This document shows, piece after piece, positions 17,507 to 33,621 of a DNA stretch of 64,000 bases. The translations under genes and the position numbers were made by a program. Location of the stretch: assembly GCF_016892705.1 (NCBI RefSeq), contig NZ_JAFEMB010000002.1, positions 372,001 to 436,000 of the forward strand, read 5' to 3'. Position 1 is the first letter of the stretch; the number at the start of each line of letters is the position of its first letter. The DNA comes from Microvirga pudoricolor (GTDB taxonomy: Bacteria; Pseudomonadota; Alphaproteobacteria; Rhizobiales; Beijerinckiaceae). The notes beneath the pieces were generated by a model. The model had not been told where the DNA came from. It made no database searches and worked only from the letters and a program-made list of their open reading frames with translations.

Positions 17507-17932
17507 TCAAGTGCGGACGACGAGCACCGAAGACTTGGCGTGCCTCACGATGGTCGAGGCATTGGAGCCGAGAAGGTAGGTGGACATGGTCGGGCGGTGG
17601 GAGCCCACGACGACGAGATCCGATCCGGTCTTTTCCGCCTCGTCCAGGACCTCGTTGTAGATCGAGCCCAGGCGCACGACCGCCGAGACGCGCTCGGCCG
17701 GAAGCTTCACGGACGCGGCGATTTCGGCCAGCTTCGCCTCGGAGACGTCCTGCTGCTCCGTGTCGAAGGTGGGCGGCATGAATTCCATGTATGTGACGGG
17801 CACGAGCGAGCGCACGTAGATCAGGCGGATCGTACCGCCCGAGCTTTCGGCCAGCTCCACCGCCTTGTCGATGGCGGGCCTTGCGGCCTCGACCTCACCG
17901 AGATCGACCGGAACGAGAATCGTCTTGAACAT
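17507..17932 (-). CDS. Universal stress protein
   Basis: A 141-residue single-domain UspA fold. It begins MFKTILVPVDLGE and ends with the ATP-binding signature (VVVGSHRPTMSTYLLGSNAS, then HAKSSVLVVRT). The ATP-binding type of Usp proteins contributes to stress survival, but partners are usually unknown. It lies 23 bp downstream of a ferredoxin gene on the same strand, so the two are probably co-transcribed. It converges with the coupled membrane protein gene. Confidence 0.9.
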   Translation of the reverse strand: MFKTILVPVDLGEVEAARPAIDKAVELAESSGGTIRLIYVRSLVPVTYMEFMPPTFDTEQQDVSEAKLAEIAASVKLPAERVSAVVRLGSIYNEVLDEAEKTGSDLVVVGSHRPTMSTYLLGSNASTIVRHAKSSVLVVRT

Positions 17933-17955
17933 GGGAATCGCCTTTTTTGGGGGTT

Positions 17956-18276
17956 TCAGCTTTGGCGGGACGGGGTCTGGACCACGAGGCCGTCGAGTTC
18001 CGGACGAACGCGAATCTGGCAGGACAAGCGGGAGTTGGGCCGCACGTCAAAAGCGAAGTCGAGCATGTCCTCTTCCATGGGCTGAGGCTCGCCCACGGCC
18101 TCCACCCACTCCTCGTCCACATAGACATGGCAGGTGGCGCAGGAGCAGGCCCCGCCGCATTCCGCGTCGATGCCCGGGATGCCGTTGCGGATGGCATTCT
18201 CCATGACGGTCGAGCCCTCCTCGGCGTCGACGCTGCGCGAGGTGCCCTGGAAATCGATGTAGGTGATCTTGACCAT
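17956..18276 (-). CDS. fdxB: Adrenodoxin-type 2Fe-2S ferredoxin
   Basis: A 106-residue electron carrier. The four cluster ligands are visible: Cys40, Cys46 and Cys49 in the loop [11 protein letters not shown], and a fourth near residue 86 (RLSCQIRV). Spacing CX5CX2C with a distant last cysteine is the vertebrate/ISC-type fold. Proteins of this type donate electrons to cytochromes P450 or to Fe-S assembly. No isc or P450 gene is nearby, so the partner cannot be assigned. Start ATG at 18276. A 201-bp divergent region separates it from the lipoprotein gene at 18478, and usp follows 23 bp downstream. Confidence 0.88.
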
Positions 18277-18477
18277 ACTGAATCCCCAATCGCCCGTCCC
18301 CGGCGCCCCCTTCCCTAGCGGGCCGCGCGGCAGGCGATGCGATATGATGCTGGGGGTTATCTAGACCAAAGCTTGGCGGAAAACGAGGGCTGCTCACTCT
18401 GAACGTGGTATGAGCCGGCAACACTTGACCTTACGACATCAGCCACGCCAAGCTTCGCCGTTCAAACGGAGGGGCTC

Positions 18478-18864
18478 ATGTCGAAGATCGTTGCTGCCGG
18501 TGTCGTCGTCCTGCTCGCCGCCGCCACGGCAGGTTGTGTCACCACTGCGGTGGAGGACAAGGAGAACATGCTGGCGGCCGCGGGCTTCAAGGTGAAGCTC
18601 GCCGACACGCCGGCCAAAATCGCCAGCCTGACCGGGCTTCCGCCCCACAAGTTCGTGCAAAACACCCAGGGCGGGCAGCCGTCCTACCTTTATGCCGACC
18701 CGACGATCTGCAAATGTCTCTATTATGGCGATCAGACCGCCTATGCGACCTACCAGCAGTTGGCGGCCGAGCAACGCGTGGCGGATCGCCGGCTGATCCA
18801 GGCCACGATGCTTCAAGACACACCCTGGAACGATTGGGCGCCCTGGGGTCCCTGGTACTACTAG
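18478..18864 (+). CDS. Small lipoprotein, hypothetical
   Basis: A 128-residue precursor with a lipoprotein signal peptide. The lipobox TAGC puts the modified cysteine at residue 20 (hydrophobic core AAGVVVLLAAATAG). The mature part has a KxKLADTPAKIASL helix, an ICKCLYYG cysteine pair and an aromatic C-terminus rich in Trp and Pro (WNDWAPWGPWYY). GGAGGGG lies ahead of the ATG. Lipoproteins of this general look are frequent in Methylobacteriaceae, but I do not know a function. It is followed after 115 bp by a tiny membrane protein gene. Confidence 0.8.
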   Translation: MSKIVAAGVVVLLAAATAGCVTTAVEDKENMLAAAGFKVKLADTPAKIASLTGLPPHKFVQNTQGGQPSYLYADPTICKCLYYGDQTAYATYQQLAAEQRVADRRLIQATMLQDTPWNDWAPWGPWYY

Positions 18865-18979
18865 CCGGCGGCAATCTGCCGGGAATTTGAACGCATGCCT
18901 CGTTTCTCAACAACCAGGCATGGTAGCCTTTTGCACCGGTCTCATCTAGCATGACGTAGGTCAACGGAGGATGGGCCTG

Positions 18980-19069
18980 ATGCACGAGTTGCTTCTTCTG
19001 CTCTTCAGTCTGGCGGGCGTGTCAGCCCTGGCCGCCATCGTGAGTTCTCTCGAGAATCCCGGAGCCTAA
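18980..19069 (+). CDS. Very short single-membrane-segment protein
   Basis: A 29-residue open frame that starts MHELLLLLFSLAGVSALAAI, followed by a short polar tail ending in NPGA. The start is the ATG at 18980, with GGAGG eight bases upstream (an in-frame ATG at 18971 is too close to that site). A terminator-like hairpin follows 20 bp after the stop. The ribosome binding site and terminator make it a plausible gene, but it is too small for firm support from sequence alone. It would insert in the inner membrane. Confidence 0.45.
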   Translation: MHELLLLLFSLAGVSALAAIVSSLENPGA

Positions 19070-19088
19070 CTCGTCCTCTCATGAGAAC

Positions 19089-19109
19089 GGCCCGCCTCAT
19101 GGGCGGGCC
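19089..19109. terminator. Hairpin between convergent small genes
   Basis: Perfect 8-bp stem GGCCCGCC-tcatg-GGCGGGCC. It sits 20 bp after the 29-residue frame and 23 bp beyond the end of the Tyr/Pro/Gly-rich gene on the other strand. No T-run follows on either side, so if it terminates it is weak or bidirectional. Confidence 0.5.
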
Positions 19110-19132
19110 GAGCAATGGATCATGAGGTTAGC

Positions 19133-19486
19133 TCAGAAGCCGTGGGCCCGATTCCAGGCACGCACCTGATCCCTTGAATAAGCCCGTGGCGGGCCATAGG
19201 CGCGACGGACTGGAGCGGCCTGACGGTAGCCCCGCGGGGGCCCGTAATAGGCGCGCGGCGGTCCGTAACGGCGGCCGTAATAGCGCGGCGGCGGCCCATA
19301 GTTGCGATAGCGATGGCGCGGGGGACCGTAATAGCGGCGCGGCGGCGGGCCGTAATAGTACTGGACCGTCTCAATCCCGGCCACGACGGGCGCGGGGGCC
19401 ACGCCGACCGGCATCGGGGCTGCCTGCGCGGCGCCGAAACAGAGACCGGCCGTCACGGCACCCAAAATCCACTGACTCAACCTCAT
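19133..19486 (-). CDS. Secreted Tyr/Gly/Pro/Arg-rich protein
   Basis: Encodes 117 residues from the ATG at 19486, chosen because GGAGAG lies six to eight bases upstream and a signal peptide (LSQWILGAVTAGLCFGAAQA) follows directly. The frame is open farther upstream without a better start. The mature protein is low complexity, with repeated YYGPPR, YRNYGPPPR and YYGRRYGPP units, and ends RDQVRAWNRAHGF. Basic Tyr/Pro-rich secreted proteins of this kind are widespread in Hyphomicrobiales and have no known function. The composition suggests a surface or cell-wall associated role. Confidence 0.72.
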   Translation of the reverse strand: MRLSQWILGAVTAGLCFGAAQAAPMPVGVAPAPVVAGIETVQYYYGPPPRRYYGPPRHRYRNYGPPPRYYGRRYGPPRAYYGPPRGYRQAAPVRRAYGPPRAYSRDQVRAWNRAHGF

Positions 19487-19600
19487 CCCATCTCTCCTCG
19501 AGAACGCGACTGTCGTGCTCGAACAACAGCGTTCGCCTTGATACAGTTCCGGAGATGAACCTACGATGAGTTGAGCGTTCAGGGACGCGGAGACGGCAGC

Positions 19601-19628
19601 AAAAGAAAACCCCGGCTCTTCGCCGGGG
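19601..19628 (-). terminator. Intrinsic terminator of the LuxR-type regulator gene
   Basis: Read on the minus strand: stem CCCCGGC-gaaga-GCCGGGG followed by TTTTCTTTT. It starts 31 bp after the regulator stop and has all the marks of a Rho-independent terminator. Confidence 0.85.
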
Positions 19629-19659
19629 TCGAGATCATGCGAACGCTTGAGAGGCGACG

Positions 19660-20388
19660 CTACTGCACGCGCACCGGCGGCTCGGCGCCGGCGCGGACCT
19701 CCTCGCCCGTCGTGAAATGGTCCGAGGCCCAGAGGGCCGCCTGGGTCCGGTTGGCGGCGCCGATCTTCCGCAGGATGGACTTCACGTGCACCTTCACGGT
19801 GGCTTCCGCCAGGTCGCATTCCCGGGCGATGATCTTGTTCGGGGCGCCGTTCTTCAGATGGCGCAGGACGTCCGCCTCGCGGGGGGACAAGTTGTGGATC
19901 CGCATCCCGAGGTTCGACGTCACGGGCTCCCGGGCCTGGCTGAAGGCCGGCGGCAGGGAACGCGCCTGAGCCAGGAGCGCCCGGCCCAGATCGGACGGGA
20001 TGACCAGTTCGCCGAGCATCAGCATCTCGAGCGACTTGATGAGGGTCTCGGGCTTCATGATCATCGCGATCAGGCCGTCGACCCCTGCCTCGCGGGCCGC
20101 GATCAGCAGGCCGGCGTCGTAAGTGTCTGCCAGGAGCGCGATGCGAGCCTCCGGGCAGGCGGCTTTCGCGGCAGCGATCTGGTCCAGGGTCGCGAGCAAT
20201 TGGCCGGCGGCCTCGACGATGATCAGGTCCGCCCGAGCCGTGCCCGGATCGCCGGACGCCACCACCTCGAACCCGCCGCCCGAAAGAATGCTCTCGAGCC
20301 CGGCCCGAAGAAGAAGGTTCCTGATCTGGAGATCGACCTTCGTCTTCTGCCCTGATTGAGGGGTCGCATCGCGATTGCCGATACTCAC
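19660..20388 (-). CDS. LuxR/FixJ-type regulator with degenerate receiver domain
   Basis: Encodes 242 residues if started at the GTG at 20388, which has GGAGG five bases upstream. Earlier in-frame starts (20487, 20427) lack ribosome binding sites. The first 130 residues follow the receiver fold (NLLLRAGLESIL, DLIIVEAAGQ, ARIALLADTYD). The phosphoacceptor aspartate is replaced by Glu59, and one of the acidic pair at the start is missing. The C-terminal HTH begins LSPREADVLRHLKNGAPNKI and continues EATVKVHVKSILRKIGAANRTQA, typical of NarL/FixJ DNA binding. A kinase-independent mode is inferred. It has its own intrinsic terminator and lies next to an RTX protein gene on the same strand. Confidence 0.85.
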   Translation of the reverse strand: MSIGNRDATPQSGQKTKVDLQIRNLLLRAGLESILSGGGFEVVASGDPGTARADLIIVEAAGQLLATLDQIAAAKAACPEARIALLADTYDAGLLIAAREAGVDGLIAMIMKPETLIKSLEMLMLGELVIPSDLGRALLAQARSLPPAFSQAREPVTSNLGMRIHNLSPREADVLRHLKNGAPNKIIARECDLAEATVKVHVKSILRKIGAANRTQAALWASDHFTTGEEVRAGAEPPVRVQ

Positions 20389-20559
20389 TGTTGCCTCCGA
20401 AACCTGTGGTTTACGTACCGTTAACATATGTTGGTTCGGTTTAGCCAAGTTTCTCTGGCGCGATAGACCGCCAAAAGGGTGATTCACGCTAACTATTTAG
20501 GATTAGTATCAGGGAAGCTGTGCCGTTCATGGCATTTCTGCAAGGCCGAGCTTGCAACA

Positions 20560-20583
20560 AACCCCGGCTGGGGAGCCGGGGTT
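20560..20583 (-). terminator. Terminator-like hairpin after the first RTX gene
   Basis: Stem AACCCCGGC-tgggga-GCCGGGGTT, 45 bp past the RTX stop on the minus strand and followed there by TGTTGC. Its core CCCCGGC/GCCGGGG is the same as in the terminator at 19601-19628. A second small hairpin (GGGCC/GGCCC around 20604-20622, T-rich loop) lies between it and the stop. Confidence 0.6.
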
Positions 20584-20627
20584 CCGAAGAATGGAATGGT
20601 GCGGGCCTCTTTTTCTGGCCCAAGCCG

Positions 20628-21935
20628 TCAGATCACGAAGAAATCCTTCTCGGTGATCTTGAGGTTCTTGCCGATTCTGGCGATCTCGACCTGATCCCGG
20701 GAGCCGGACCCGTCCGGGTCGTAGAAGACGATTCCCTTCTTGGCGTCGTAGATGACCCGATCCGAGCTGTCGTGCGCCTCCGCGCCCTTCCAGAAGGCGG
20801 AAGCCTTCAGGGCGCCGGCCTTCCCGAGGTATTTGAAGACGGCGTTCTCCAGGTGGATCGTGTCGTCCCGCACGTTGAAATCAGTGATGCGGTCGTAGTT
20901 GGCCGTGTCGTCCGGCTTGGTGTCGAACACGAACACGTCCTTGCCGGCACCGCCCGTCAGGGTGTCGTTGCCGAGGCCGCCATTGAGCTTGTTGGCGCCC
21001 CCGTGGCCCACGATGAGGTTGGCGAAGGCGTTGCCCGTGAGCGCGAAGCCGCCCGTCGAGAAGAGGTTCTCGAGTTCCAGCCCGAGCGTGTGGTCGGCGG
21101 ACGCCAGAACCGTGTCGGTGCCCTCGTTGGCCAGCTCGTAGATGGTGTCGCCGGGATTGTCGACGCGGTAGGTATCGTCCCCGGCGCCGCCCAGCATGGT
21201 GTCGGCGCCCATGCCGCCGTCGATGGCGTTGTTGGCCGCGTTGCCTACGATGGTGTTGTCGGAGGAGCTTCCGGTCAGCGACAGGACCCCTGCACCGAAG
21301 GCGGCGAGGTACTCGACCTCGGACTGGGCCTCCAGGGCGTAGCTGACCGTCGTGTAGACGTAATCGTAGCCGCTCGACGGGCTTTCCAGGACGGTGTCGC
21401 CGGCATTGTCGACATAGTAGACGTCGCTGCCGTTCCCGCCTTCCATGCGGTCCGCGCCGGAATCGCCTCGCAGGGTGTCGCTGCCGTCGCCGCCGACCAG
21501 GGTATCGTTGTCCGCGCCGCCCTCGAGCAGGTCGTTGCCCGCGCCGCCGTCGAGATAGTCGTTCCCCGATCCGCCGTAGAGGCCGGCGTACCAGTAATCC
21601 CCGGTCCAGCCGAGCATCACGCCGGAGTCATTGCCGGCCCCTCCGTAGAGGATGTCGTCCCCGTCATAGCCCAAGAGGAGGTCGATCCCCGCTCCGCCTT
21701 CCAGATAGTCGGATCCAGAGGGATTGCCGGTCGGGATGGTCCAGGGCGCGTTGACCGTTCCGTCGCCCGTATAGGACGTATAATAGGACCCGGAGAGGAC
21801 GTCATTGCCCTCGCCGCCGTAGAGGGCATTGCCGGCGGCATTGCCCATCAGGAAATCATGGCCGCCGCCGCCGTAATAGTCGTCGAACGTGCCGGAGGCA
21901 TAGTCGTCGATATCGGTACCATAGAAATTCGCCAT
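20628..21935 (-). CDS. RTX-type calcium-binding secreted protein
   Basis: Encodes 435 residues from the ATG at 21935, preceded by GGGAG. The frame continues upstream, but the start MANFYGTDIDDYASG fits leaderless RTX proteins. Glycine-aspartate nonapeptides such as GGSGNDYLD, GGAGNDLLE and GGADNDTLV bind calcium in a beta roll. They are interspersed with DVYYVDNAGDTVLES modules and an aspartate-rich insert (residues 55-75). The end (DRVIYDAKKGIVFYDPDGSG, then NLKITEKDFFVI) matches the end of the protein at 60510-62057 and is the likely type I secretion signal. No hlyB/hlyD transporter genes are nearby. Function beyond secretion and calcium binding is unknown. Confidence 0.88.
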   Translation of the reverse strand: MANFYGTDIDDYASGTFDDYYGGGGHDFLMGNAAGNALYGGEGNDVLSGSYYTSYTGDGTVNAPWTIPTGNPSGSDYLEGGAGIDLLLGYDGDDILYGGAGNDSGVMLGWTGDYWYAGLYGGSGNDYLDGGAGNDLLEGGADNDTLVGGDGSDTLRGDSGADRMEGGNGSDVYYVDNAGDTVLESPSSGYDYVYTTVSYALEAQSEVEYLAAFGAGVLSLTGSSSDNTIVGNAANNAIDGGMGADTMLGGAGDDTYRVDNPGDTIYELANEGTDTVLASADHTLGLELENLFSTGGFALTGNAFANLIVGHGGANKLNGGLGNDTLTGGAGKDVFVFDTKPDDTANYDRITDFNVRDDTIHLENAVFKYLGKAGALKASAFWKGAEAHDSSDRVIYDAKKGIVFYDPDGSGSRDQVEIARIGKNLKITEKDFFVI

Positions 21936-22609
21936 CACTACACTCCCGTTGCTCGGGCCGCATCGCGCCCGGTCGTCTTCGGAAGGCTGGCCAAAACGGC
22001 CTTCACGTGATCCCTGACGCTGCAGGCAGGGACAGGGGTGGGGGAGCGGTCCTTCGCAGGCCGAGTGAATGGACACTTCATCGGATTGGCCCTCTCGCAA
22101 CAAAGCTGCCGTAACAGCTCCCGGGCAGGTTAGGCCTCGGCTCGCAGGAGCCCTGTTAGGCACTTCACACTGGCCCGGCCGACCCCCTTGGGCGTTTCGC
22201 GGGACGTGCGAGGGCGCACCCCTGCCCTATGGGAAGGTCCCAGATTTGGGAGGCGCCGGCGGCCTGGGCATAGAGTCCTGTGGAGAGTTTTGTGCGCCCG
22301 GCTCCTGCCGCGAGGAATATCCGAAGCCGTCGAAATCCTTGCCCCGCAACGGCTAGCCGTGACCCCTGGACTATGGTTAATGTCTCTTACGTTAGGTAGT
22401 TACTAACCCGTTAACGACGTTTCCAGATGCCAGGGGGGTTCGGGTTTGCAGGCCCTGCCCCAGGCACTAGAGTTATTTGCTAAGTGGCAGGTTTTCCGAC
22501 CGGAAAGCTCCGTTTCAGTTTGCTCGGCGCGCCTTATTAAGGCCCACCCGTCCGCTGGACGAGCCTTTCGACCGTTAGGCCGCATGTGTTGCGTCAGCGA
22601 GGGCGGATC
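21936..22609. other. 674-bp divergent intergenic region
   Basis: Lies between the first RTX gene (minus) and the giant coiled-coil gene (plus) and must contain both promoters. Short open frames exist (for example 22069-22356), but their composition and poor starts do not support genes. Around 22377-22415 there is an AT-richer stretch with inverted GTTAG/CTAAC sequences, including a CtrA-like site listed separately. I see no tRNA or clear riboswitch. Confidence 0.6.
22400..22415. promoter_or_regulatory. CtrA-like site upstream of the giant coiled-coil gene
   Basis: TTAC-TAACCCG-TTAAC fits the alphaproteobacterial CtrA consensus TTAA-N7-TTAAC with one mismatch. It overlaps an inverted repeat (GTTAG, then CTAAC). 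It lies about 195 bp before the ATG at 22610. CtrA controls cell-cycle and polarity genes, which would suit the proposed role of the gene, but one site read by eye is weak evidence. Confidence 0.35.
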
Positions 22610-25600
22610 ATGGCGATCGAGAACAAGAAGATGAAAGACCCGGCGGAGGCGGCCCTGTCAGCCGTCGAACAGGCGTTGAACCTGGACGACACGCAAGGCT
22701 CTCCCGTCGAGACGTCATCTCCCGAGCGCCCCGAGGAGCCCCGCCTCCCCGACGTGGAAGACCACGACTTCACGAACCGGTCTTTCCGCGACCTCGACGA
22801 AGGTCACCTTCGCTTCGACGGCGACGCCTACAAGGCGGACGAGCCCGAGCCGGCCCGCCCCTCCTACCTGGCGCCCGACCGGGACGCCGTGGCCAACGAC
22901 GACCGCCGCAATGTCGGCGTGATGCTTCAGGCGCTGCAGGTCCGTCCCTCCCGCCGCGCCTATGGATACGCCACCCTCGCCTCGCTCGCCTGGATCGCCG
23001 CCGCCGCCTTCGTTCTCTACACCCGTGGCGTCACGACGCCCGACGCCCTCCTGGCGGCCTTCTCCTACACGCAGCTCGCCATCGGGGCCTTCGTGGTGAT
23101 GGTGCCCGTGGTGTTCTTCTTCGTGGCCGCCATCATGGCCGTGCGCTCGCAGGAGATGAAGCTCGTGGCCCGGGCCGTGGGCGAGGTCGCCGTCCGCCTG
23201 GCGCAGCCGGAGAGCTTCTCCACCGACGCGGTCCTGTCCGTGTCGCAGGCCGTTCGTCGCGAGATCGCCGCCGTGGGCGATGGCGTGGAGCGGGCGCTGG
23301 CCCGCGCGGGCGAACTCGAAACCCTCGTGCGCAGCGAGATCTCGACCCTCGAGCGCGCCTATACCGACAACGAAATCCGCATCCGCTCGCTCATCGACGA
23401 GTTGGTCACGCAGCGCGAGTCCATCGTCACGAACGCGGAGCGCGTGCGCGGCGCCATCACGGGCGCGCACCAGAACCTGACGCAGGACCTCGACGCCGCC
23501 TCCGAGCGCGTGGTCGCGGCCGTTCAGGGCGCGGGCGAGCGCGTCTCCGGCTCCCTGGAACAGCGCGGCGAGCAGATCACCCAGGCCCTCGGCCGGGCCG
23601 GCGAGCGCGTCGTGGACGACATGGCCTCCCGCGGTGTCGAGCTCGTCGACCGCCTGTCCGGCGCGAGCGAGGACATCAAGACCGGCATCGCCGATGTAGG
23701 CACCACCATCACGGCCGCGCTGGAGGGCAAGGCGCAGGACATCAGCGGCGCCTTCGAGCGCACGGGCGACCTTCTCACCCGCCACCTCCAGGACGGTGCC
23801 AGCCAGGTCACCCGCACCCTGGCCGAGACCGGGCGCGGCGTGATCGATGCGCTGGCCCAGCAGGGCAGCGACGTGCGCGAGGCGTTCGAGCAGACCGCCC
23901 GCACCCTCGAGGACAGCTTCGCGGCCCGTGGCACCGAGATCACCGAGAAACTCGCGGCGACGGGCGGCGTCATCGCCGAGGACATCACCACCCGGGCCGA
24001 GGCGATGCGCGACCAGATCGCGTCCGCCGGCCTCACCGTGGGCGAAGAGCTGACGAGCCGCGGCACCCTGCTGCGCGAGCAGCTCGTGACCGCCAACACG
24101 GAGATGCTCGACGAGATCGTCGGGCGCGGGACGGCCCTGCGCGAGCAATTCGCCGCCACCAACAACGAGGTCCGGCACGAGCTGGCCACCACGGGCGCCT
24201 CGATCATCGAGCAGATCGCCACCAGCGGCGATGCCCTTCGGTCCGAGTTTTCCACCAGCACCCGCGCCGTGCTGGACGAGCTCGCCACACGCACCACCGG
24301 CCTTCAGGTCCAGCTCCTCTCCACCAGCAAGGAAGTGGTGGACGAGATCGTGGTGCGCGGCGGCGAGGTTCGCGAGCGGTTGGCCGCCACGAGCGCCGAC
24401 GTGGCCCGGGAAATCGACCTGCGCGGCGGGGAAGTGCGCGAACAGCTTCAGAACGCTGTCCGCCTGGCCGACGAATCCATCGGCAGCCGGGTCGAGGACC
24501 TGGCGAGCCGCCTGGAGACCGCGAGCCTGCGCGTGAGCGAGACCGTCACGGTGCAGGGCCAGGCCCTGGAGGGCACCCTCTCCCAGGTGGGAGAGCGCAT
24601 CACCGCGCTGGTGGGCAGCCGCGTGGAGGAATTCCAGACCGTGTTCGAGACCCGGGGCCGCGAATTCGCGGACTCGCTGGCGGTGCAGGCGGGCGAGGCG
24701 CACACCCGCCTCGCGACCACCGGCAAGGACATCGTCCTGGCCATCGCCACCCAAGGCGCGCGGGTTAACGATGCGCTGAACCGCACGGCGGAAGGGCTCA
24801 ACGAGACCGTGGGCCTGCGCAGCCGCGAGATCGAGGAGACCCTCGGCACCCGCCTGACCGCCTTCGAGGAGGTGATGACCCGGGGCGGCGAGATCGCCGA
24901 GCGGATCTCGCAGGACGTGGGCGGCCTCACGCAGACCATCTCGGGCCGTTTCGAGGAGATGGACCGCCTCATCACGGTCCAGGGCCGCACCATCGCCGAC
25001 ACCCTGGCCGAGCGCACCCGCGAGGCCACCGGCGCCATCGAGGCCCAGCTCACGGCCTTCGAGGAGCACGCCACCCGGCGCAGCACGGAGATCACCACGA
25101 ATTTCGACACCCTGGTCGAGCGCGTCGACCAGACCCTCGGAGCCCGCTCGACGGCGATCAACGAAGCCTTGGTGGTGCGCACCGGCGAAATGGCCCGCGT
25201 CATGGCCGAGGGCGGCCGCGAGGTCGCCGGCGCCCTGCAGGCCCGCGTGGACGAACTCAGCCAGGCGATCTCCGCCAAGAGCGGCAGCATCGCGGAAGCC
25301 CTGACGGCGAAGGCGGATCACATCGGCGAGGTGCTCGGCACCCGCGCGGATGAGATCAACCTCGCTCTGGGCGGCCGGGCCGACCAGATCAACCAGATCC
25401 TCACGGCCCGCTCCGAGGAGATCAACACGGTCCTGGGCAATCGGGCCGACCAGATCAACCTTGTGCTCGGCAGCCGCGCCGCCGAGATCAACGAAACCCT
25501 GGGCACCCGCGCCGAGGAGATCGCCGCGACCCTCGACCGGCGCGTGTCCGCCTTCGAGGACCGGGTGGTCAACCGCCTGGAGACCATCACGGCGGATCTC

Positions 25601-27643
25601 GACGAGAAGGGCACCCTCGTGTCCGGCTCGCTCGGCAACAAGATCGAGGAGATCGGCCGCCTGTTCGATACGCAGGGCACCTCCCTCGTCACCACGCTCG
25701 GCGAGCGCGGCGACGCGATCAGCCGTGAGGTGGCCGCCGTCAGCGATACGGCGCTGCGCAACCTCGAGCAGCGCTCGAGCGCCCTCATCGATACGCTCCA
25801 GGAGCGCAGCAACACGGTCGTCAATCTCTTGGAGGACCGCAGCGAGGGCATGCTCTCCGCCCTCCAGGACCGCACGGCGGAGCTGACCTCGGTCTACACC
25901 CAGTCGACGGAGGCCCTGCGCGTCGCCATCGACGAAGGCACGACCCGCGCCGTTTCCACGCTGGTGGGCACGAACGACCGCCTGCGCGGGGAGCTGTCGG
26001 GCGTGCTCGATCGCCTGCACGAGGCCAACCGCATCCTGCAGCAGATCGCGTCCAGCGCCACGGGCAACCTCGGCGCCATCGAGGACGGGCTATCCGGCCG
26101 CGTGGGCCAGATCGAAGGCCTCCTGGCGCAGATCGAGGCCCAGACCGGCCGCGCCTCCGAGCAGGTCGCCGAACAGGTCGATGCCCTGCGGCAGGTGTCT
26201 CAGGGCGCCGTCCAGCAGGCGAGCGACCTGGCCTCGAGCCTCGACGAGCGCAGCCGCGCGCTGGCCGAGAACACCCGCACCCAGCTCGTCACCCTCACCG
26301 AGGCGGCGGACGCCCTGGAGCGGGTCGAGCAGAGGGTCAACGCCGCCCTCGGCGGTCGCCAGAGCGCCCTCGACACCCTGCTCAGCCGCATTGGCGAGCG
26401 GTCGGAGGAGCTGGAAGCCGTCACCCGCACCTTCACGGCCCTCATCGAGGGATCGCTGCAGAACGCCGAGACGAAGGCGCGCCAGATCGGTTCCGTCCTC
26501 GCCGGCTCTGCGGAGACCACCACCGCCGCCATCGGCGAGCAGTTCGAGCGTATTCGGGCCACCACGGGCGCCGAGAGCGAGCGCACCGCCGCCGCCCTGC
26601 GCGGGGCCTACGAGCAGGCTGCCGCCGACATGACGGAGGCCCTCACCGGGGCCACGACCAAGTTCCGGGATACCATGGGCGAGCTGCGCGGCATGACGGC
26701 CCAGATCCAGCGCGAGCTGGACGCCACACGGGCGGAACTGCGCCGCGGTGTCGTGGAGCTGCCCCAGGAGACCCAGGAGACCACGGCGAATATGCGCCGG
26801 GTCGTGGCAGACCAGATCAGGGCTCTGAACGAGCTGTCGGCTCTCGTGTCCCGCTCCAACCGCGCCCTGGATGCCGCGCCGGCGGCCCAGCCGCGCCGGG
26901 TCAACGAAGCGCCCGCGGCTACGGTCGCCGTCGCGGAGGCCCGCCGTCCCGAGGCGGCACCGGTCCCGAGCGCTGCGGTCCGACCCCCTCAAGCCATGGC
27001 ATCCGCGCCCGTAGCGCCGCAGGCGATGGGATCGCATGTCCTGCCGCAACCCCTGGCGTCCTCCGCGCCGGTATCCTCCGCGCCTGCGTCCCCTGCCCCG
27101 GTGACGGCGCGCTTCGCCGAGCCGCAGATGCCGGTCGCGGCGCCGGCTCCTCGCCCCGCCCCCGAGCGCCCTGCTCCGCCGGCGGCCCGCGAGACGGCCG
27201 CCCGCAGCGGCTGGCTCTCGGACCTCCTGAACCGGGCCTCACGCGAGGAGCAGCCGGGCGTCGCCAAGAACGGGCCGCGCCATGACCGCTCCCGCATCAA
27301 CAGCCTGGAATCCTTGGATTCGATCTCGGTCGACATCGCCCGCATGATCGATCATGAGGCGGCCGTGGAGCTGTGGGATCGCTACAAGCGCGGGGAGAGC
27401 AATGTGTTCACCCGCCGCCTCTACACGATCCAGGGCCAGCAGACCTTCGACGAGATCCGCCGCAAATACCGCAGCGATCAGGAGTTCAAGCAGACCGTGG
27501 ACCGTTACGTGGAGGAGTTCGAGCGCCTGATCGCGGAGGTCTCCCGCGACGACAAGGGCTCGGCGCTCGCCAACACGTACCTGACCTCGGAAACCGGCAA
27601 GGTCTACACCATGCTGGCCCATGCGAGCGGCCGGTTCGATTGA
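22610..27643 (+). CDS. Giant hendecad-repeat membrane protein, growth pole ring protein (GPR/RgsE)-like
   Basis: About 1,677 residues from the ATG at 22610 (a GTG eight codons upstream has no better ribosome binding site). A charged N-terminus precedes two membrane segments at about residues 117-139 and 150-178. Beyond them is an extremely long helical region. Residues 385-615 are exactly 21 uninterrupted 11-residue units (RGTEITEKLAA, RGGEVRERLAA and so on). Residues 889-976 hold eight more, with near-identical RADQIN cores. A Pro/Ala linker (about 1420-1550) leads to a conserved C-terminal domain (about 1559-1677, with IARMIDHEAAVELWDRYKRG). Apolipoprotein-like hendecads with N-terminal membrane anchors are the layout of GPR of Agrobacterium and RgsE of Sinorhizobium, which form a ring at the growing pole. 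Orthology is inferred from architecture only. Confidence 0.72.
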   Translation: MAIENKKMKDPAEAALSAVEQALNLDDTQGSPVETSSPERPEEPRLPDVEDHDFTNRSFRDLDEGHLRFDGDAYKADEPEPARPSYLAPDRDAVANDDRRNVGVMLQALQVRPSRRAYGYATLASLAWIAAAAFVLYTRGVTTPDALLAAFSYTQLAIGAFVVMVPVVFFFVAAIMAVRSQEMKLVARAVGEVAVRLAQPESFSTDAVLSVSQAVRREIAAVGDGVERALARAGELETLVRSEISTLERAYTDNEIRIRSLIDELVTQRESIVTNAERVRGAITGAHQNLTQDLDAASERVVAAVQGAGERVSGSLEQRGEQITQALGRAGERVVDDMASRGVELVDRLSGASEDIKTGIADVGTTITAALEGKAQDISGAFERTGDLLTRHLQDGASQVTRTLAETGRGVIDALAQQGSDVREAFEQTARTLEDSFAARGTEITEKLAATGGVIAEDITTRAEAMRDQIASAGLTVGEELTSRGTLLREQLVTANTEMLDEIVGRGTALREQFAATNNEVRHELATTGASIIEQIATSGDALRSEFSTSTRAVLDELATRTTGLQVQLLSTSKEVVDEIVVRGGEVRERLAATSADVAREIDLRGGEVREQLQNAVRLADESIGSRVEDLASRLETASLRVSETVTVQGQALEGTLSQVGERITALVGSRVEEFQTVFETRGREFADSLAVQAGEAHTRLATTGKDIVLAIATQGARVNDALNRTAEGLNETVGLRSREIEETLGTRLTAFEEVMTRGGEIAERISQDVGGLTQTISGRFEEMDRLITVQGRTIADTLAERTREATGAIEAQLTAFEEHATRRSTEITTNFDTLVERVDQTLGARSTAINEALVVRTGEMARVMAEGGREVAGALQARVDELSQAISAKSGSIAEALTAKADHIGEVLGTRADEINLALGGRADQINQILTARSEEINTVLGNRADQINLVLGSRAAEINETLGTRAEEIAATLDRRVSAFEDRVVNRLETITADLDEKGTLVSGSLGNKIEEIGRLFDTQGTSLVTTLGERGDAISREVAAVSDTALRNLEQRSSALIDTLQERSNTVVNLLEDRSEGMLSALQDRTAELTSVYTQSTEALRVAIDEGTTRAVSTLVGTNDRLRGELSGVLDRLHEANRILQQIASSATGNLGAIEDGLSGRVGQIEGLLAQIEAQTGRASEQVAEQVDALRQVSQGAVQQASDLASSLDERSRALAENTRTQLVTLTEAADALERVEQRVNAALGGRQSALDTLLSRIGERSEELEAVTRTFTALIEGSLQNAETKARQIGSVLAGSAETTTAAIGEQFERIRATTGAESERTAAALRGAYEQAAADMTEALTGATTKFRDTMGELRGMTAQIQRELDATRAELRRGVVELPQETQETTANMRRVVADQIRALNELSALVSRSNRALDAAPAAQPRRVNEAPAATVAVAEARRPEAAPVPSAAVRPPQAMASAPVAPQAMGSHVLPQPLASSAPVSSAPASPAPVTARFAEPQMPVAAPAPRPAPERPAPPAARETAARSGWLSDLLNRASREEQPGVAKNGPRHDRSRINSLESLDSISVDIARMIDHEAAVELWDRYKRGESNVFTRRLYTIQGQQTFDEIRRKYRSDQEFKQTVDRYVEEFERLIAEVSRDDKGSALANTYLTSETGKVYTMLAHASGRFD

Positions 27644-28582: not shown

Positions 28583-29242
28583 TCAGGCTGGATTCGCGAC
28601 AGGCCCGGCGGCGTCTCGGCTGGGGATCGGGGAGCGGCTGACCCAGCGCACGATGTCGAGCATCACGACGGACAGGGCCTGATCGAGGGCGCGGCTGCCG
28701 ACCTGGGCATTGATGGCCGTCACCGGCACCGAGGCTCGGAAAATGCGCCCGGCGATGATCTTGCCGTCGATGTCGCTGACGATCTTCACCGACATTTCCA
28801 CATAGGCCTCCCCGTTCGGGGTCCTCAGCTCGAAGCTGCGCAGTTCCGAGATGATCTGGGCATCCGCCACCGCGCCGCTGCTGGGGCGCGACACGTTGCG
28901 GATCTGGGAGGCGTTCTCGAAGGTGTTGATGAGGCGGGTCTGAATCAGGCTCGGGAGGCTGTCGGCCCATTGGCCGTCGCCAAGCGACGTCACCGTGCCC
29001 GAGACGTCCTTCACGACGATCTGCTGAGCCGACAGGGCCTGGAGCGCCGCAGGCGTCGCCACGAGAATCTGGCGGCCGGCCGCGCCCCGGATCTGCGCGG
29101 TCGGCGCGGACAGGTCGTAGGTGGTGGGGGTCGAGCTTGAACAGGCTCCCGCAAGGGAAGCCAGAAGCAGAACCGGCGCGAGACGGAAGATCACGCTGGC
29201 TCGTTCACCGATTTTGACTTGAGACACAGGACACCAACGCAT
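28583..29242 (-). CDS. ABC-type transport auxiliary lipoprotein (PqiC/ABC_trans_aux family)
   Basis: A 219-residue lipoprotein precursor. The lipobox LAGAC is at about residues 30-34, after a hydrophobic core (FRLAPVLLLASLAGA). The mature domain (IRGAAGRQILVATPAALQAL, then VVKDVSGTVTSL, then AQIISELRSFELRT) fits the family that assists MCE-type lipid transporters in the outer membrane leaflet. It is the last gene of the mlaE-mlaF-mlaD group, 11 bp after mlaD. Start ATG at 29242; a later GTG cannot be excluded. The tail after residue 205 is proline-rich and disordered. Confidence 0.82.
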   Translation of the reverse strand: MRWCPVSQVKIGERASVIFRLAPVLLLASLAGACSSSTPTTYDLSAPTAQIRGAAGRQILVATPAALQALSAQQIVVKDVSGTVTSLGDGQWADSLPSLIQTRLINTFENASQIRNVSRPSSGAVADAQIISELRSFELRTPNGEAYVEMSVKIVSDIDGKIIAGRIFRASVPVTAINAQVGSRALDQALSVVMLDIVRWVSRSPIPSRDAAGPVANPA

Positions 29243-29253
29243 GAGTTCAACGC

Positions 29254-30582
29254 TTACCGGCGGCCATTATATTGCGGAAGGGAAGACTGGCCACCGAAGA
29301 TAAACTGCTGTGGATTACGCTCGATGCTGCGCACCGCGCGGCTGATGTCGCCCAGCGTGCGGCGCCCCTCCACGGCCAGGGCCTCGTATTCGCGCAGGCC
29401 CGAATTGGAGAACCGGTCGAAGCCCTGCAATACGCCCGCCGAGCGGGTGTTCAGGTTGTCGGCGAGGTCCCGGATGGACTTGGCGGCCGCGCGGATCTCC
29501 TCGAAGGTGCTCTGCCCCTCCTGGCCCGAGGCCGAGCCGAGGAAGTTCTGAGCGCCCTGGAGCACCGCGTCGATCTTGTCGGCGGACGCGTTCAGCTTCT
29601 CGCTGAGGGACCGGGCCTCCACGATGATCTTGTCCACGTCCCCGCTCCGGTTGCCCAGGGTCTGGGTGAACAGGTCGATATTGTCCACCGCCCGGCCCAC
29701 CTTCGTGGCGTCGACGGCGCGGGTGATGTTGCCGAAGTCGGTGATTGCGGCATTCAGCTTCGGCCCGGCCTCGTTGAGGCTGCGCACCAGGGAGGCGGCG
29801 TCCTTCAGGGTGCTGTTGATGGCGTCTCGGTTCTCGCCCAGGGCCTGGGTGAAGTTCTCCACGTTCTCGACGATGCGGGTGACCCGGTTCTTGTCCACGG
29901 CCAGGATCAGGTCGTCCACGTTGGTGGCCAGGGTTTCAAGCTTCTCGGCCAGGGGGCCGAGGCGCTCGGCGGCTTGGCCCACCTGATCGAGGAAGCGGTC
30001 GATGCCCTCGGAATTGTCGCTGAGCGCCTGGGAGAACCGCTCCACGTTCTGCACGGTGCGGGTGATCGTTCCTTCGTTCTCCTGCACGACCCGGCCGACG
30101 AGTTCGAGCACGCTGTCGGCCCGGCGGGCGATGTTGCGGGCGGATTCCAGCAGGTCCTGGAAGTCCGAGCGGTCGGCGAAGATGGTGGGCATGGGCTGGC
30201 CCGGCCCCGCCACGAGCGGCGGAGCGTTCGGCTCGCCGCCGGTGAGCGCGATCTGGGCCACGCCCGTGAGGCCCTGGGATTCGAGCCGGGCGCGGGTGTC
30301 GGACCGGATCGGCGTCGATTTCTCGACCTGGATGATGGCGTAGACCCGGCGCGGGTCGTCCGGCAGCAGGTTGATGTCCGTGACGGCACCCACGTTCAGG
30401 CCGTTGAAGAGCACCAGCGAACCCTTGGAGATGCCCGAGACCGAGCCGGAGAACACCACCCGGATGGTCTGCTTTTCCTGGCCCCGGTCGCCGCCGCTGA
30501 ACCAGTAGACGAAACCGAAGGCCGCGGCGATGACGGCCAGGGTGAAGACACCGATCAGCGCGTAGTTGGCACGTGTTTCCAT
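29254..30582 (-). CDS. mlaD: MlaD family MCE domain protein
   Basis: A 442-residue periplasmic lipid-binding subunit anchored by one N-terminal membrane segment (residues 7-29, IGVFTLAVIAAAFGFVYWF). The MCE domain follows (RVVFSGSVSGISKGSLVLFNG through ARLESQGLTGVAQIALTGG). Beyond residue 150 is a long helical region with repeats of ENVENFTQALGEN type (NVERFSQALSDN, NIDLFTQTLGNR). This suggests a helical needle or tunnel like that of longer MCE proteins. It is larger than E. coli MlaD (183 residues). Part of a four-gene operon, 8 bp after mlaF. The Mla system moves phospholipids between the membranes. Confidence 0.9.
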   Translation of the reverse strand: METRANYALIGVFTLAVIAAAFGFVYWFSGGDRGQEKQTIRVVFSGSVSGISKGSLVLFNGLNVGAVTDINLLPDDPRRVYAIIQVEKSTPIRSDTRARLESQGLTGVAQIALTGGEPNAPPLVAGPGQPMPTIFADRSDFQDLLESARNIARRADSVLELVGRVVQENEGTITRTVQNVERFSQALSDNSEGIDRFLDQVGQAAERLGPLAEKLETLATNVDDLILAVDKNRVTRIVENVENFTQALGENRDAINSTLKDAASLVRSLNEAGPKLNAAITDFGNITRAVDATKVGRAVDNIDLFTQTLGNRSGDVDKIIVEARSLSEKLNASADKIDAVLQGAQNFLGSASGQEGQSTFEEIRAAAKSIRDLADNLNTRSAGVLQGFDRFSNSGLREYEALAVEGRRTLGDISRAVRSIERNPQQFIFGGQSSLPQYNGRR

Positions 30583-30590
30583 CGCAAACC

Positions 30591-31391
30591 TTAAGCCTCG
30601 CTCGCCTGCACGGCGCGCGCCCGCTTTCCGTGAAAATAGGATTTCAGCCAGGGATCGTCCGATGCGAGCATGGTCTCGATCGGCCCCTCGGCCAGGATCT
30701 TGCCCTTACCCAGGGCCGCGATTCGGTCGCAGACCGTGTAAAGGCTGTCCAGATCATGGGTTACCATGAATACGGTGAGGCCCAAAGTACGCTGCAACGT
30801 CGCAATCAGGTCGTCGAACTCGCCCGCCCCGATGGGATCGAGGCCCGAGGTCGGCTCGTCCAGGAACACGATGTCGGGATCGAGCGCCAGGGCCCGGGCG
30901 AGCGACGCGCGCTTGATCATGCCGCCGGAGAGCTCCGAGGGCAGCTTGTCGGCCGCGTCGGGCTGAAGGCCGACCATCTCGATCTTGAGCATGGCGAGCT
31001 CGTCCAGGAGCCGCTCGGACAACGACAGGTACTCTCGCATGGGAACCTGGACGTTCTGCTTGACGGTCAGCGCCGAGAACAGGGCGCCCTGCTGGAACAG
31101 CACGCCCCAGTGGCGCTCGATCTCCCGGCGGCCGGACGCAGAGAGCTCGTCGAGGTTCTCGCCCAACACCTCGATGGTGCCCGCGCGTTTCGGGACGAGG
31201 CCCAGGATGGCTCGGGTAAGCACCGACTTGCCCTGCCCCGAGGCCCCCACGAAGCCCAGGATCTCGCCCCGGTAAACGTCCAGGTCGAGGCCCTTCATGA
31301 TCGTGCGGTCGCCGAAGCCGACCTCCAGGTCCCGGACCCGGATGATGGCTTCGCGGTCGCGCTTGGAAACGGGATGTCGGGGATCGGCCAT
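30591..31391 (-). CDS. mlaF: Mla-type ABC transporter ATP-binding protein
   Basis: Encodes 266 residues. Walker A reads GASGQGKS, the ABC signature is LSGGMIKRASLARAL, Walker B is DIVFLDEPTSGLDPIG, and the switch histidine is in MVTHDLDSL. The MlaF-like signature LSGGM and the position between mlaE and mlaD assign it to the phospholipid transporter, not a general importer. It couples ATP hydrolysis to lipid movement through MlaE. Spacing is 5 bp after mlaE and 8 bp before mlaD. Confidence 0.92.
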   Translation of the reverse strand: MADPRHPVSKRDREAIIRVRDLEVGFGDRTIMKGLDLDVYRGEILGFVGASGQGKSVLTRAILGLVPKRAGTIEVLGENLDELSASGRREIERHWGVLFQQGALFSALTVKQNVQVPMREYLSLSERLLDELAMLKIEMVGLQPDAADKLPSELSGGMIKRASLARALALDPDIVFLDEPTSGLDPIGAGEFDDLIATLQRTLGLTVFMVTHDLDSLYTVCDRIAALGKGKILAEGPIETMLASDDPWLKSYFHGKRARAVQASEA

Positions 31392-31396
31392 GGCGC

Positions 31397-32560
31397 TCAG
31401 TACTTAATCGCGGCGAAGAACATGGCAAACAGGCCGTCCAGCACGATGACCATGAAGATCGACTTCACCACCGAGGACGTCACGCGGCGGCCGAGCGACT
31501 CCGCCGAGCCCTCCACGGCCAAACCCTCCAGGGTCGCGATGATGCCGATCACGAGGGCCATGAAGGGGGCCTTGATGAGCCCCACCAGGAAGGTGTTGAG
31601 GCTCACCGCCGCCTGCAGGCGGGAGAGGAACACGTCGAGGCTGATCCCGCCATAGACGAGGCCCGTCAGCGCGCCGCCGGCCAAAGCCGCGATGGACGAG
31701 ATGAAGGTGAGGAGCGGAAGGCCGATGAGAAGGGCCAGGATGCGCGGAACGATGAGCACTTCCATGGGGTCGAGGCCCATGACCCGCAGCGCGTCGATCT
31801 CCTCGCGCATCTTCATGGAGCCGATCTCGGCCGTGAAGGCCGAGCCCGACCGGCCGGCCACCATGATGGAGGTGAGCAGCACCGCCAGCTCGCGCAGGAT
31901 CAGGATGCCGATGAGATCCACCACGAAGGGCGTGGCGCCGAAGCGCACGAGCTGGAAGATGCCCTGCTGGGACACGATGCAGCCGACCAGGAACGAGATC
32001 AGCACGATGATGGGAACGCCCCGGTAGGCCACCTGCTCGAGCTGGTGCACCACCGCCGGAAACCGGAACCGGCGCGGGTTGAGGATCACCCGCAGAAGAG
32101 CCATCAGCAGCTCGCCCAGGAAGGCCGTCCCGCTCACCAGGTCCTTCCAGGCATCGCTGACGGTCCGGCCCACATCCACGAGAAAATCGACGAACCGGGA
32201 CTGCTTCTTGGGCTTCTGCTCCTGAAAACCCCGATAGGCGACCTCATTGAGGAGGATCTGCTGCTCCGGGCTCGCATTGACGAAGTCAGCCGCCATGTTC
32301 CGCGACCCGACCTCGTGCCTGGTTCGGTCGAGCACCCAGGCGCCCAGGGTGTCGAGGCGCTTGACGCCCGACAGGTCGATGATGAGGCGATGCTCCCCGC
32401 CCTCTTCCGTGAGTTCCTTGGCGAGGGTTTCGATCTTGCCCGAATGCTCCGCCGTCCAGTGACCGGACAACAGGGCCGACACCTCGTCCCCGGACCGCTC
32501 GATCCTGGCTTCCGGCTCTTGTGTCAGGGTGCCCTGGGCCACGGTCGAGATGTTCCTCAT
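31397..32560 (-). CDS. mlaE: MlaE family permease with N-terminal STAS domain
   Basis: About 387 residues from the ATG at 32560. The frame extends to 32641, which would overlap the divergent gene, and 387 residues is the usual size for this architecture. The N-terminal 100 residues are a STAS domain (LIIDLSGVKRLDTLGAWVLDR) that in E. coli is the separate protein MlaB. The permease follows with membrane segments near AYRGVPIIVLISFLVGCIV, LAVLLTSIMVAGRSGSAF and LALLIGLPLLTF, and the EIGSMKMREEIDALRVMGLDP coupling stretch. It lies at the head of the operon with mlaF, mlaD and the lipoprotein. No mlaC-type soluble carrier gene is present. Confidence 0.9.
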   Translation of the reverse strand: MRNISTVAQGTLTQEPEARIERSGDEVSALLSGHWTAEHSGKIETLAKELTEEGGEHRLIIDLSGVKRLDTLGAWVLDRTRHEVGSRNMAADFVNASPEQQILLNEVAYRGFQEQKPKKQSRFVDFLVDVGRTVSDAWKDLVSGTAFLGELLMALLRVILNPRRFRFPAVVHQLEQVAYRGVPIIVLISFLVGCIVSQQGIFQLVRFGATPFVVDLIGILILRELAVLLTSIMVAGRSGSAFTAEIGSMKMREEIDALRVMGLDPMEVLIVPRILALLIGLPLLTFISSIAALAGGALTGLVYGGISLDVFLSRLQAAVSLNTFLVGLIKAPFMALVIGIIATLEGLAVEGSAESLGRRVTSSVVKSIFMVIVLDGLFAMFFAAIKY

Positions 32561-32634
32561 CGGATTGATTCCGCTTGGTAATACCGTGGCCTGACGGCAT
32601 AAGTCGAGCCGAAGTTTCATAGGAATCCCGTCAA

Positions 32635-33621
32635 ATGACACGTCGTCTCGCCGTTGCCGCCGAAAGCTTTCCGATCGCGGGCAAGTTCACGATCGCGCGG
32701 GGATCGCGGACGGAGGCCGTGGTCGTGACGGCCACGATCCATGAGGATGGGGCGATCGGGCGCGGCGAATGCGTTCCCTATGCCCGTTACGGGGAGACCG
32801 TGGAGGGTGTCGTGGCCGCCATCGAGGCCATGGCGTCTCAAGTCGAGGCTGGGCTGTCCCGGGAGGGTCTGCAGGAGGCCATGCCGGCCGGGGCCGCCCG
32901 CAACGCCTTGGACTGCGCCCTGTGGGACCTCGACGCGAAGCGCTCCGGTATTCGGGCCCACGTGACAGCTGGCGTGGCGCGCCTGCCCCCCGCCACGACC
33001 GCCTACACGATCAGCCTCGACAGCCCGGACGCCATGGCGCAGGCGACCGCCAGGGCGGCGGACAGGCCGATCCTGAAGATCAAGCTCGGCGCGCCGGGCG
33101 GGGACGTGGCGCGGATCCGGGCCGTTCGCGGGGCGGCCCCCGCCTCGACCCTCATCGCCGACGCCAACGAGGGTTGGACGGAGGCCAATCTGGCGGAGCA
33201 TTTCGCGGCCTGCGCGGAGGCCGGCTTTTCCCTCGTGGAACAGCCGCTCCCGGCCAAGGACGACGGCGCCCTGAGCCGAATCGCGCGCCCGGTGCCGATC
33301 TGCGCCGACGAGAGCGTTCACGACCGGCCGAGCCTGGACCGGCTCGTGGGCCTCTACGACGCCGTCAATATCAAGCTCGACAAGACCGGTGGCCTCACCG
33401 AGGCGTTGGCCCTGGCCGAGGCCGCAGAAGCGAGGGGGCTCGCGCTCATGATCGGCTGCATGGTGGGAACGTCGCTGGCCATGGCGCCTGCCTTGGTGCT
33501 GGCGCCGCGGGCCCGCTTCGTCGATCTGGACGGGCCGCTTCTCCTCGCCCGCGATCGGGAGCCCGGTCTGGCCTATGAAGGAAGCGTGGTCTATCCGCCC
33601 GAACCGCCGCTTTGGGGCTGA
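32635..33621 (+). CDS. dgcA: L-Ala-D/L-Glu-type dipeptide epimerase of the enolase superfamily
   Basis: A 328-residue enolase-superfamily protein of the muconate-lactonizing subgroup. Catalytic marks are the KxK pair (ILKIKLG), metal ligands in DANEGW, VEQPL and CADES, and the second-half lysine in NIKLDKTGGL. The family converts L-Ala-D-Glu-type dipeptides from murein recycling. In Rhizobiales this branch is often called DgcA, an N-acetyl-D-glutamate racemase, so the exact substrate is uncertain. The ATG at 32635 has a poor ribosome binding site. It is divergent from mlaE, and its last 31 bases overlap the MFS gene on the other strand. Confidence 0.85.
   Translation: MTRRLAVAAESFPIAGKFTIARGSRTEAVVVTATIHEDGAIGRGECVPYARYGETVEGVVAAIEAMASQVEAGLSREGLQEAMPAGAARNALDCALWDLDAKRSGIRAHVTAGVARLPPATTAYTISLDSPDAMAQATARAADRPILKIKLGAPGGDVARIRAVRGAAPASTLIADANEGWTEANLAEHFAACAEAGFSLVEQPLPAKDDGALSRIARPVPICADESVHDRPSLDRLVGLYDAVNIKLDKTGGLTEALALAEAAEARGLALMIGCMVGTSLAMAPALVLAPRARFVDLDGPLLLARDREPGLAYEGSVVYPPEPPLWG

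Follow-up and report, generated by a model that had tools for sequence, protein, structure and literature searches.

An orthologue of the polar growth protein GPR/RgsE in Microvirga pudoricolor: a hendecad coil, its length among relatives and a linked Hpt gene

The window analysed here, a 64-kb (64,000-nucleotide) stretch of the Microvirga pudoricolor genome, carries on its forward strand (22610–27643) an open reading frame for a 1677-aa protein, an orthologue of GPR of Agrobacterium tumefaciens and RgsE of Sinorhizobium meliloti, recognised by N- and C-terminal matches to RgsE and by the family PF01442. The conserved upstream neighbour of this gene (gpr) encodes a universal stress protein (usp; 17507–17932, reverse strand, PF00582), and on the other side, convergent with gpr, lie Mla/Mce-type lipid transport genes (28583–32641, reverse strand; PF03886, PF02470 and PF02405). 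The interval between usp and gpr (17933–22609) is the site of an Hpt gene in related genera; here it holds no Hpt and is occupied instead by genes for an RTX calcium-binding protein and a LuxR-type regulator (19133–22163), the RTX protein having a match in the flank of only two of the 37 Microvirga loci found among the best 80 of 438 relatives. A long open frame of 1101 aa also runs antisense inside gpr (22715–26020, reverse strand), and is most likely a by-product of high GC content and repeats.

The protein is composed, in order, of two N-terminal membrane helices, a coil of ~1140 residues that is mainly hendecad, a Pro/Ala-rich linker and a C-terminal helical domain; the two membrane segments, linker and conserved terminal domain had all been anticipated in the original prediction. 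Both helices align with RgsE, the second (residues 160–178; 23087–23143) having a hydropathy of 2.87, and the first (residues 118–136; 22961–23017), which is Ala-rich and the weaker of the pair, a mean of 1.58 over 19 residues, under the threshold of 1.6. Together with the start of the coil this membrane hairpin makes up a conserved N-terminal region (residues 105–325; 22922–23584), delimited by the RgsE match and an alignment of 24 proteins. Between two conserved anchors the coil covers residues 247–1383 (23348–26758; 1137 residues), and is followed by the linker (about residues 1421–1545; 26870–27244), evident in the translation, and the C-terminal domain (residues 1559–1677; 27284–27640), which matches RgsE, is present throughout the order and is predicted to be all-helical (pLDDT 75, pTM 0.65). 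Comparison of this domain with solved structures gave no relative, with a best E of 0.35 by sequence and 0.47 by fold, the latter from the model of pLDDT 75.

Hydrophobic periodicity over residues 231–1440 peaks at 3.66 residues, the hendecad value being 11/3 (3.667), with a power of 65, where 300 shuffles reach at most 11.5. Beyond about residue 1040 the best period drops to ~3.6, and the end of the coil therefore departs from a pure hendecad pattern. Residues 385–615 (23762–24454) form exactly 21 consecutive 11-residue units, as had been noted at the outset, with I, L, M, V or F at position 5 in 21/21 and at position 9 in 21/21, and a summed hydrophobic fraction of 2.0 (at most 1.05 when the stretch is shuffled 2000 times). 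A second run, at residues 889–976 (25274–25537), is indeed eight units long with positions 6 and 10 hydrophobic in every unit, but its description as having near-identical RADQIN cores was slightly too strong: R..(E/Q)IN is found in five of the eight units and RAD(E/Q)IN in three of those five, the first two units being less alike. At the DNA level, a tandem-repeat finder detects a decayed 33/66-bp array in this region (25329–25522; 64–70% matches), whereas elsewhere the coil has mostly diverged beyond its reach. PF01442 (apolipoprotein A1/A4/E) matches nine stretches of the protein, scoring 164.7 bits against a cut-off of 90. A relationship to the ZorA-like (Zorya) motor tail was considered and rejected, as the three NCBIfam scores (26 vs 100, 16.8 vs 700 and 15.6 vs 190 bits) are far under their cut-offs and the matches are confined to the coil.

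Orthology was established against a 2,089-aa S. meliloti protein, annotated as ‘kinesin’ on a 3.7-Mb record (L064, CP090106.1), which, judging by published length and domains rather than by locus tag, is RgsE (SMc00190, 2,089 aa; PMC7327166), and which itself scores 257.8 bits for PF01442, above the cut-off. The label on this record is plasmid pSymB; with rgsE, cytochrome bc1 and fol genes on it, it has the look of the chromosome or of a replicon given the wrong label. The N-terminal region is 44% identical to this protein over 227 aligned columns (single-comparison E 1e-59); for the C-terminal region the identity is 62% over 135 columns (66.7% over 111 aa by tblastn). The original prediction of a GPR/RgsE counterpart, which had set in advance a lack of similarity at the two ends as one of its refutations, is supported by these matches. 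As a counterpart the protein is not novel but an addition to an established family: RgsE homologues have already been reported from every Rhizobiales family (PMC7327166), and 80% of bacterial PF01442 proteins are reported to be from Rhizobiales (PMC8262873).

Of 61 relatives, the own genome among them, 60 carry the C-terminal domain, as do 284/297 genomes sampled from the order, generally with one match each; across the class, relatives occur in 106 of 289 genomes, and there is also one Sphingomonas plasmid record. The top rows among the best 80 of 438 relatives are Microvirga, at 87–92% identity. The family survives strong genome reduction, since genomes of ~0.9 Mb (G519, locus L106; G400; G612) retain a short GPR-like gene of ~640–680 aa.

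Because the proteins of close relatives differ in length, coil length was taken as the distance between the anchors LER-AY..NE (residue 247) and LP.E....MRR (residue 1384), a measure that needs no alignment and is free of alignment bias towards 11-residue gaps. Both anchors were located in all 38 Microvirga and all 15 Bosea-type proteins (among the best 80 of 438 relatives), 7/9 from other f1 genera and 30/71 of the remaining loci; among 60 further loci the proportions were 7/10 (f35g40), 3/7 (f24g67), 2/3 (f42g92) and 5/5 (f41g46), with the rest complete. Coil lengths from 763 to 2333 residues were seen. The window coil, at 1137 residues, is 4 mod 11, as are 34 of the 38 in Microvirga, where 11 distinct lengths range from 1016 to 1705; the other four are 0 mod 11, which is 7 more. 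Bosea-type coils repeat this pattern, with 13/15 at 5 mod 11 and 2/15 at 1, again 7 further on. Differences between pairs, which are not independent when all pairs are counted, are multiples of 11 in 474/610 cases for the Microvirga coil, 57/682 for the N-terminus and 20/648 for the tail, the corresponding counts in Bosea being 75/101, 0/86 and 3/101. In a mixed Pseudolabrys-like set of several genera the coil count is 26/138, with lengths in the classes 1, 8, 4 and 0 mod 11, each 7 from the next; over wider evolutionary distances the mod-11 classes spread.

Among the 60 further genes, multiples of 11 account for 65/114 pair differences in the coil, 8/113 in the N-terminus and 7/118 in the tail over all groups. 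The rule is complete in f36g41 (18/18), f11g101 (9/9) and three f42 genera (10/10), partial in f20g20 (20/35) and f50g55 (6/10), and not followed in f35g40 (2/21), f41g46 (0/8) and f24g67 (0/3). Most of the sampled genera show quantised coil lengths, and three depart. Two of these have further peculiarities: in f41g46 (L241–L245) the coil changes in steps of 40 residues (33+7) and there is no clear stand-alone Hpt gene, and in f35g40 (L203–L212) Hpt is upstream of gpr and in the same orientation in 10/10 genomes. In nearest-neighbour alignments over ten groups, multiples of 11 make up 107/148 indels in the coil, 4/128 in the N-terminus and 1/257 in the tail (flanks pooled, 5/385). Per 1000 aa, in-frame indels that are not multiples number 0.40 in the coil vs 6.4 in the N-terminus and 13.0 in the tail, 16 to 32 times rarer in the coil, a contrast that is partly one of helix vs disorder, since the flanks are disordered and more tolerant. 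Of 41 such coil indels, 39 were assessed for helical phase (first 14 lengths per group), and 25 of these fall within 45 degrees of whole helical turns, vs 9.8 expected. None of the titles and abstract openings listed by literature searches reports quantised coil length, and the word ‘hendecad’ is absent from the main text of PMC8262873 and of PMC7327166.

In most relatives, a small stand-alone Hpt gene is located upstream of gpr on the opposite strand, as in S. meliloti, where it matches PF01627 (L064, 5084–5452, divergent upstream of rgsE); the linkage is seen in most of the loci L038–L057, L066–L075, L087–L093, L138–L186 (non-Microvirga) and L187–L246. Counted by strand and distance, 97/122 other Hyphomicrobiales loci have Hpt divergent from gpr and no more than 1.3 kb away: 19/21 in a first set that includes two Rhizobiaceae, 9/9 in other genera of the window's family, 32/33 in the non-Microvirga part of the best 80 of 438 relatives, a selection that leans to Microvirga and Bosea, and 37/59 in the last set. 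L056, L214 and 10 of the 43 non-Microvirga loci in that selection, whose upstream sequence is short, were left out of this tally. Widening the limit to 5.5 kb upstream brings the linked loci to 111/122. The remaining 25 of the 122 comprise 14 with Hpt farther away or on the same strand (four f35g40 loci within 2 kb on the same strand; eight at 2.5–5.5 kb, of which six are same-strand f35g40 and two divergent f20g20; and the divergent L180 at 5.2 kb and L232 at 2.1 kb) and 11 in which none was found upstream (L045; L054, with 1363 bp upstream only; four f50g55; five f41g46). Weak matches do occur in two f41g46 genomes, some of them scoring 22 bits in short frames (192 and 134 aa). In other orders Hpt is divergent in 7 of 20 loci, a count that leaves out the 873-aa neighbour with an Hpt match at L105.

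The phospho-accepting His is retained in 66 of 69 Hpt proteins. Two Hpt-like genes without it, one with Leu in its place beside a 774-aa GPR-like protein of Sphingomonas (L065, 8015–10339) and one with Trp (L093, 4719–5111), perhaps represent a binding-only form. Hpt–gpr linkage, too, is reported in none of the titles and abstract openings listed; Hpt is absent from the main text of PMC8262873, and both Hpt and phosphotransfer from that of PMC7327166.

In Microvirga the linked gene has been lost. No Hpt was detected in the 64-kb window, nor in the window's own genome at E ≤ 0.001; none lies beside gpr in the 37 Microvirga loci among the best 80 of 438 relatives, and a stand-alone Hpt gene is present in 0/36 Microvirga genomes, the weak matches in 16 of these being to frames of 745–1021 aa. 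The same search succeeded in 11/11 genomes of other genera in the same family. The loci L076–L086 and the other Microvirga set derive in part from the same genomes, and their counts have not been added together. A decayed relic was sought and rejected: the best E among six-frame peptides covering up to 3 kb upstream was 0.17, vs 1.9e-24 to 1.4e-32 at three control loci. Gene order (usp, (hpt), gpr, mla genes) is otherwise common to Microvirga and Bosea, with usp upstream in 36/37 Microvirga and 15/15 Bosea-type loci (among the best 80 of 438 relatives) and the Mla/Mce-type genes matched downstream in 14/15 Bosea-type loci. The usp-to-gpr gap measures 415–758 bp in 34/36 Microvirga loci; the other two have 1482 and 2092 bp, the window 4.7 kb, and the 15 Bosea-type loci 821–2661 bp. 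As the gap is mostly shorter than that of Bosea and the flanking order is shared, Hpt has been deleted in place in Microvirga, leaving no recognisable relic. Similar losses are seen in f18g18, f41g46 and four of five f50g55 genomes.

The 11-residue steps could arise from slippage of 33-bp repeats with no selection on register, which would yield unit steps for free; a 33/66-bp array does exist in the window, and tolerance in the disordered flanks accounts for part of the contrast with the coil. Slippage would not, however, remove the other in-frame indels, yet these are 16 to 32 times rarer in the coil, and over most of its length the coil has diverged beyond what the tandem-repeat finder registers. 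Slippage as the sole cause is thus judged unlikely; DNA slippage of 33-bp units is a likely source of length variants, and the pattern as a whole reads as selection keeping side-by-side packing in register. As units are gained or lost whole, length can change with that packing preserved. A closer contest concerns the Hpt gene, which could be a passive neighbour held in place by a shared promoter region and with no link to GPR function. Its repeated loss while gpr stayed (Microvirga, f18g18, f41g46 and four of five f50g55 genomes) is what this would allow, and the same-strand gene of f35g40 indicates that a head-to-head arrangement is not needed. Set against this are divergent adjacency in 97/122 loci, linkage within 5.5 kb in 111/122, recurrence in other orders (7/20) and the conserved phospho-accepting His (66/69). 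A passive neighbour remains a substantial possibility, if a little short of an even one, and the role of Hpt in the pole machinery, suggested by gene order, is put forward as a candidate.

Two further alternatives concern the protein itself. Most of it is coil, it adjoins Mla-type lipid transport genes, and PF01442 gives matches, none above its cut-off, in 7/14 control genomes, as might be expected if the protein were simply a generic coiled coil or an apolipoprotein-like lipid coat whose likeness to GPR ended with the repeat pattern. This was rejected as highly improbable: the similarity to RgsE is specific and non-coil at both ends, and the C-terminal domain is spread over the order, usually with one match per genome. 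The other possibility is that of a true family member with a different job in Microvirga, such as that of a landmark for polarity in the manner of Caulobacter TipN. The role of the family may vary, since relatives extend to genomes of other orders and occur in 106/289 over the class; an alternative role outside Rhizobiales is raised by Krol et al. (PMC7327166), similarity to TipN has been published (PMC8546619), and Microvirga lacks the Hpt neighbour. On the other side, Microvirga belongs to the order, has a C-terminal domain 62% identical to that of RgsE, and is without true MreB, so that a different job here appears quite improbable. In the window's own genome, which is 99.99% complete, the three matches to the MreB profile are an HSP70, FtsA and an HSP70-type protein; two of them pass the MreB cut-off, yet score far higher for their own families. 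The MreC profile stays under its cut-off in this genome.

The reading preferred here, and held with good confidence, is that of a Microvirga GPR/RgsE orthologue whose register-keeping coil would be assembled at the pole, with an Hpt input that probably operates in most relatives and has been dispensed with in Microvirga. The hairpin of two membrane helices would form an inner-membrane anchor, from which the ~1140-residue coil, ~170 nm if fully extended, is proposed to self-associate in register in the cytoplasm, while the Pro-rich linker would present the helical C-terminal domain to the growth machinery as a docking site. Self-assembly, docking and placement at the growing pole are inferred from experiments on GPR and RgsE (PMC8262873, PMC7327166); published deletions have shown the C terminus and apolipoprotein-like coil of GPR to be required for function (PMC8262873). 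By orthology, ring formation, polar localisation and polar growth may be expected in Microvirga, the protein assembling at the growing pole and keeping wall synthesis there in a cell that lacks MreB. Over evolution, coil units would be gained and lost whole, with register kept. In most relatives the neighbouring Hpt protein probably feeds a phosphorelay signal into the pole machinery, without which Microvirga would work.

GPR is a candidate organiser of the confinement of wall synthesis to one pole in MreB-less polar growers. The quantised coil length offers a direct test of molecular packing, by comparing 11-residue with out-of-phase deletions; the natural length variants allow testing of whether coil length sets ring size; and the linked Hpt, with whole genera that have lost it, provides a testable candidate link from phosphorelay signalling to the growth pole. 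A broader and more speculative proposal is of a register-locked, length-adjustable scaffold, in which Hpt is the ancestral regulator and Microvirga a natural knock-out of the Hpt input. In such a scaffold selection would let the coil change mainly by whole 11-residue (occasionally 7-residue) units with neighbouring molecules staying in phase, and since they must do so, coil length would set the size of the pole structure in each species. Hpt, upstream and usually head-to-head, would tie a cell-cycle phosphorelay to the site of wall growth.

Of the named systems, RgsE is closest in design, with the same pair of membrane helices at the N-terminus, an apolipoprotein-like coil, a Pro/Ala linker and homologous ends. 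It differs in having a longer coil (1574 residues vs 1137 between the same anchors) and an Hpt gene beside rgsE, where none lies beside gpr in the window. GPR (Atu1348, 2,115 aa), which is reported to be 42% identical to RgsE (PMC7327166) and was compared through it, has the same architecture as published (PMC7327166, PMC8262873) and is ~440 aa longer than the window protein, in keeping with the expectation of a protein shorter than GPR. A link to TipN (882 aa) of C. crescentus does not count as a new finding, the similarity being already in print (PMC8546619). Likened by description, TipN is a membrane protein with a large cytoplasmic coiled coil that marks the new pole, but it is under half the length of GPR and acts in a cell that keeps MreB. 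FilP and Scy have a part in the polar growth of Streptomyces and are not known to have a membrane hairpin. They too are coiled coils with hendecads (PMC9858780), from an unrelated lineage.
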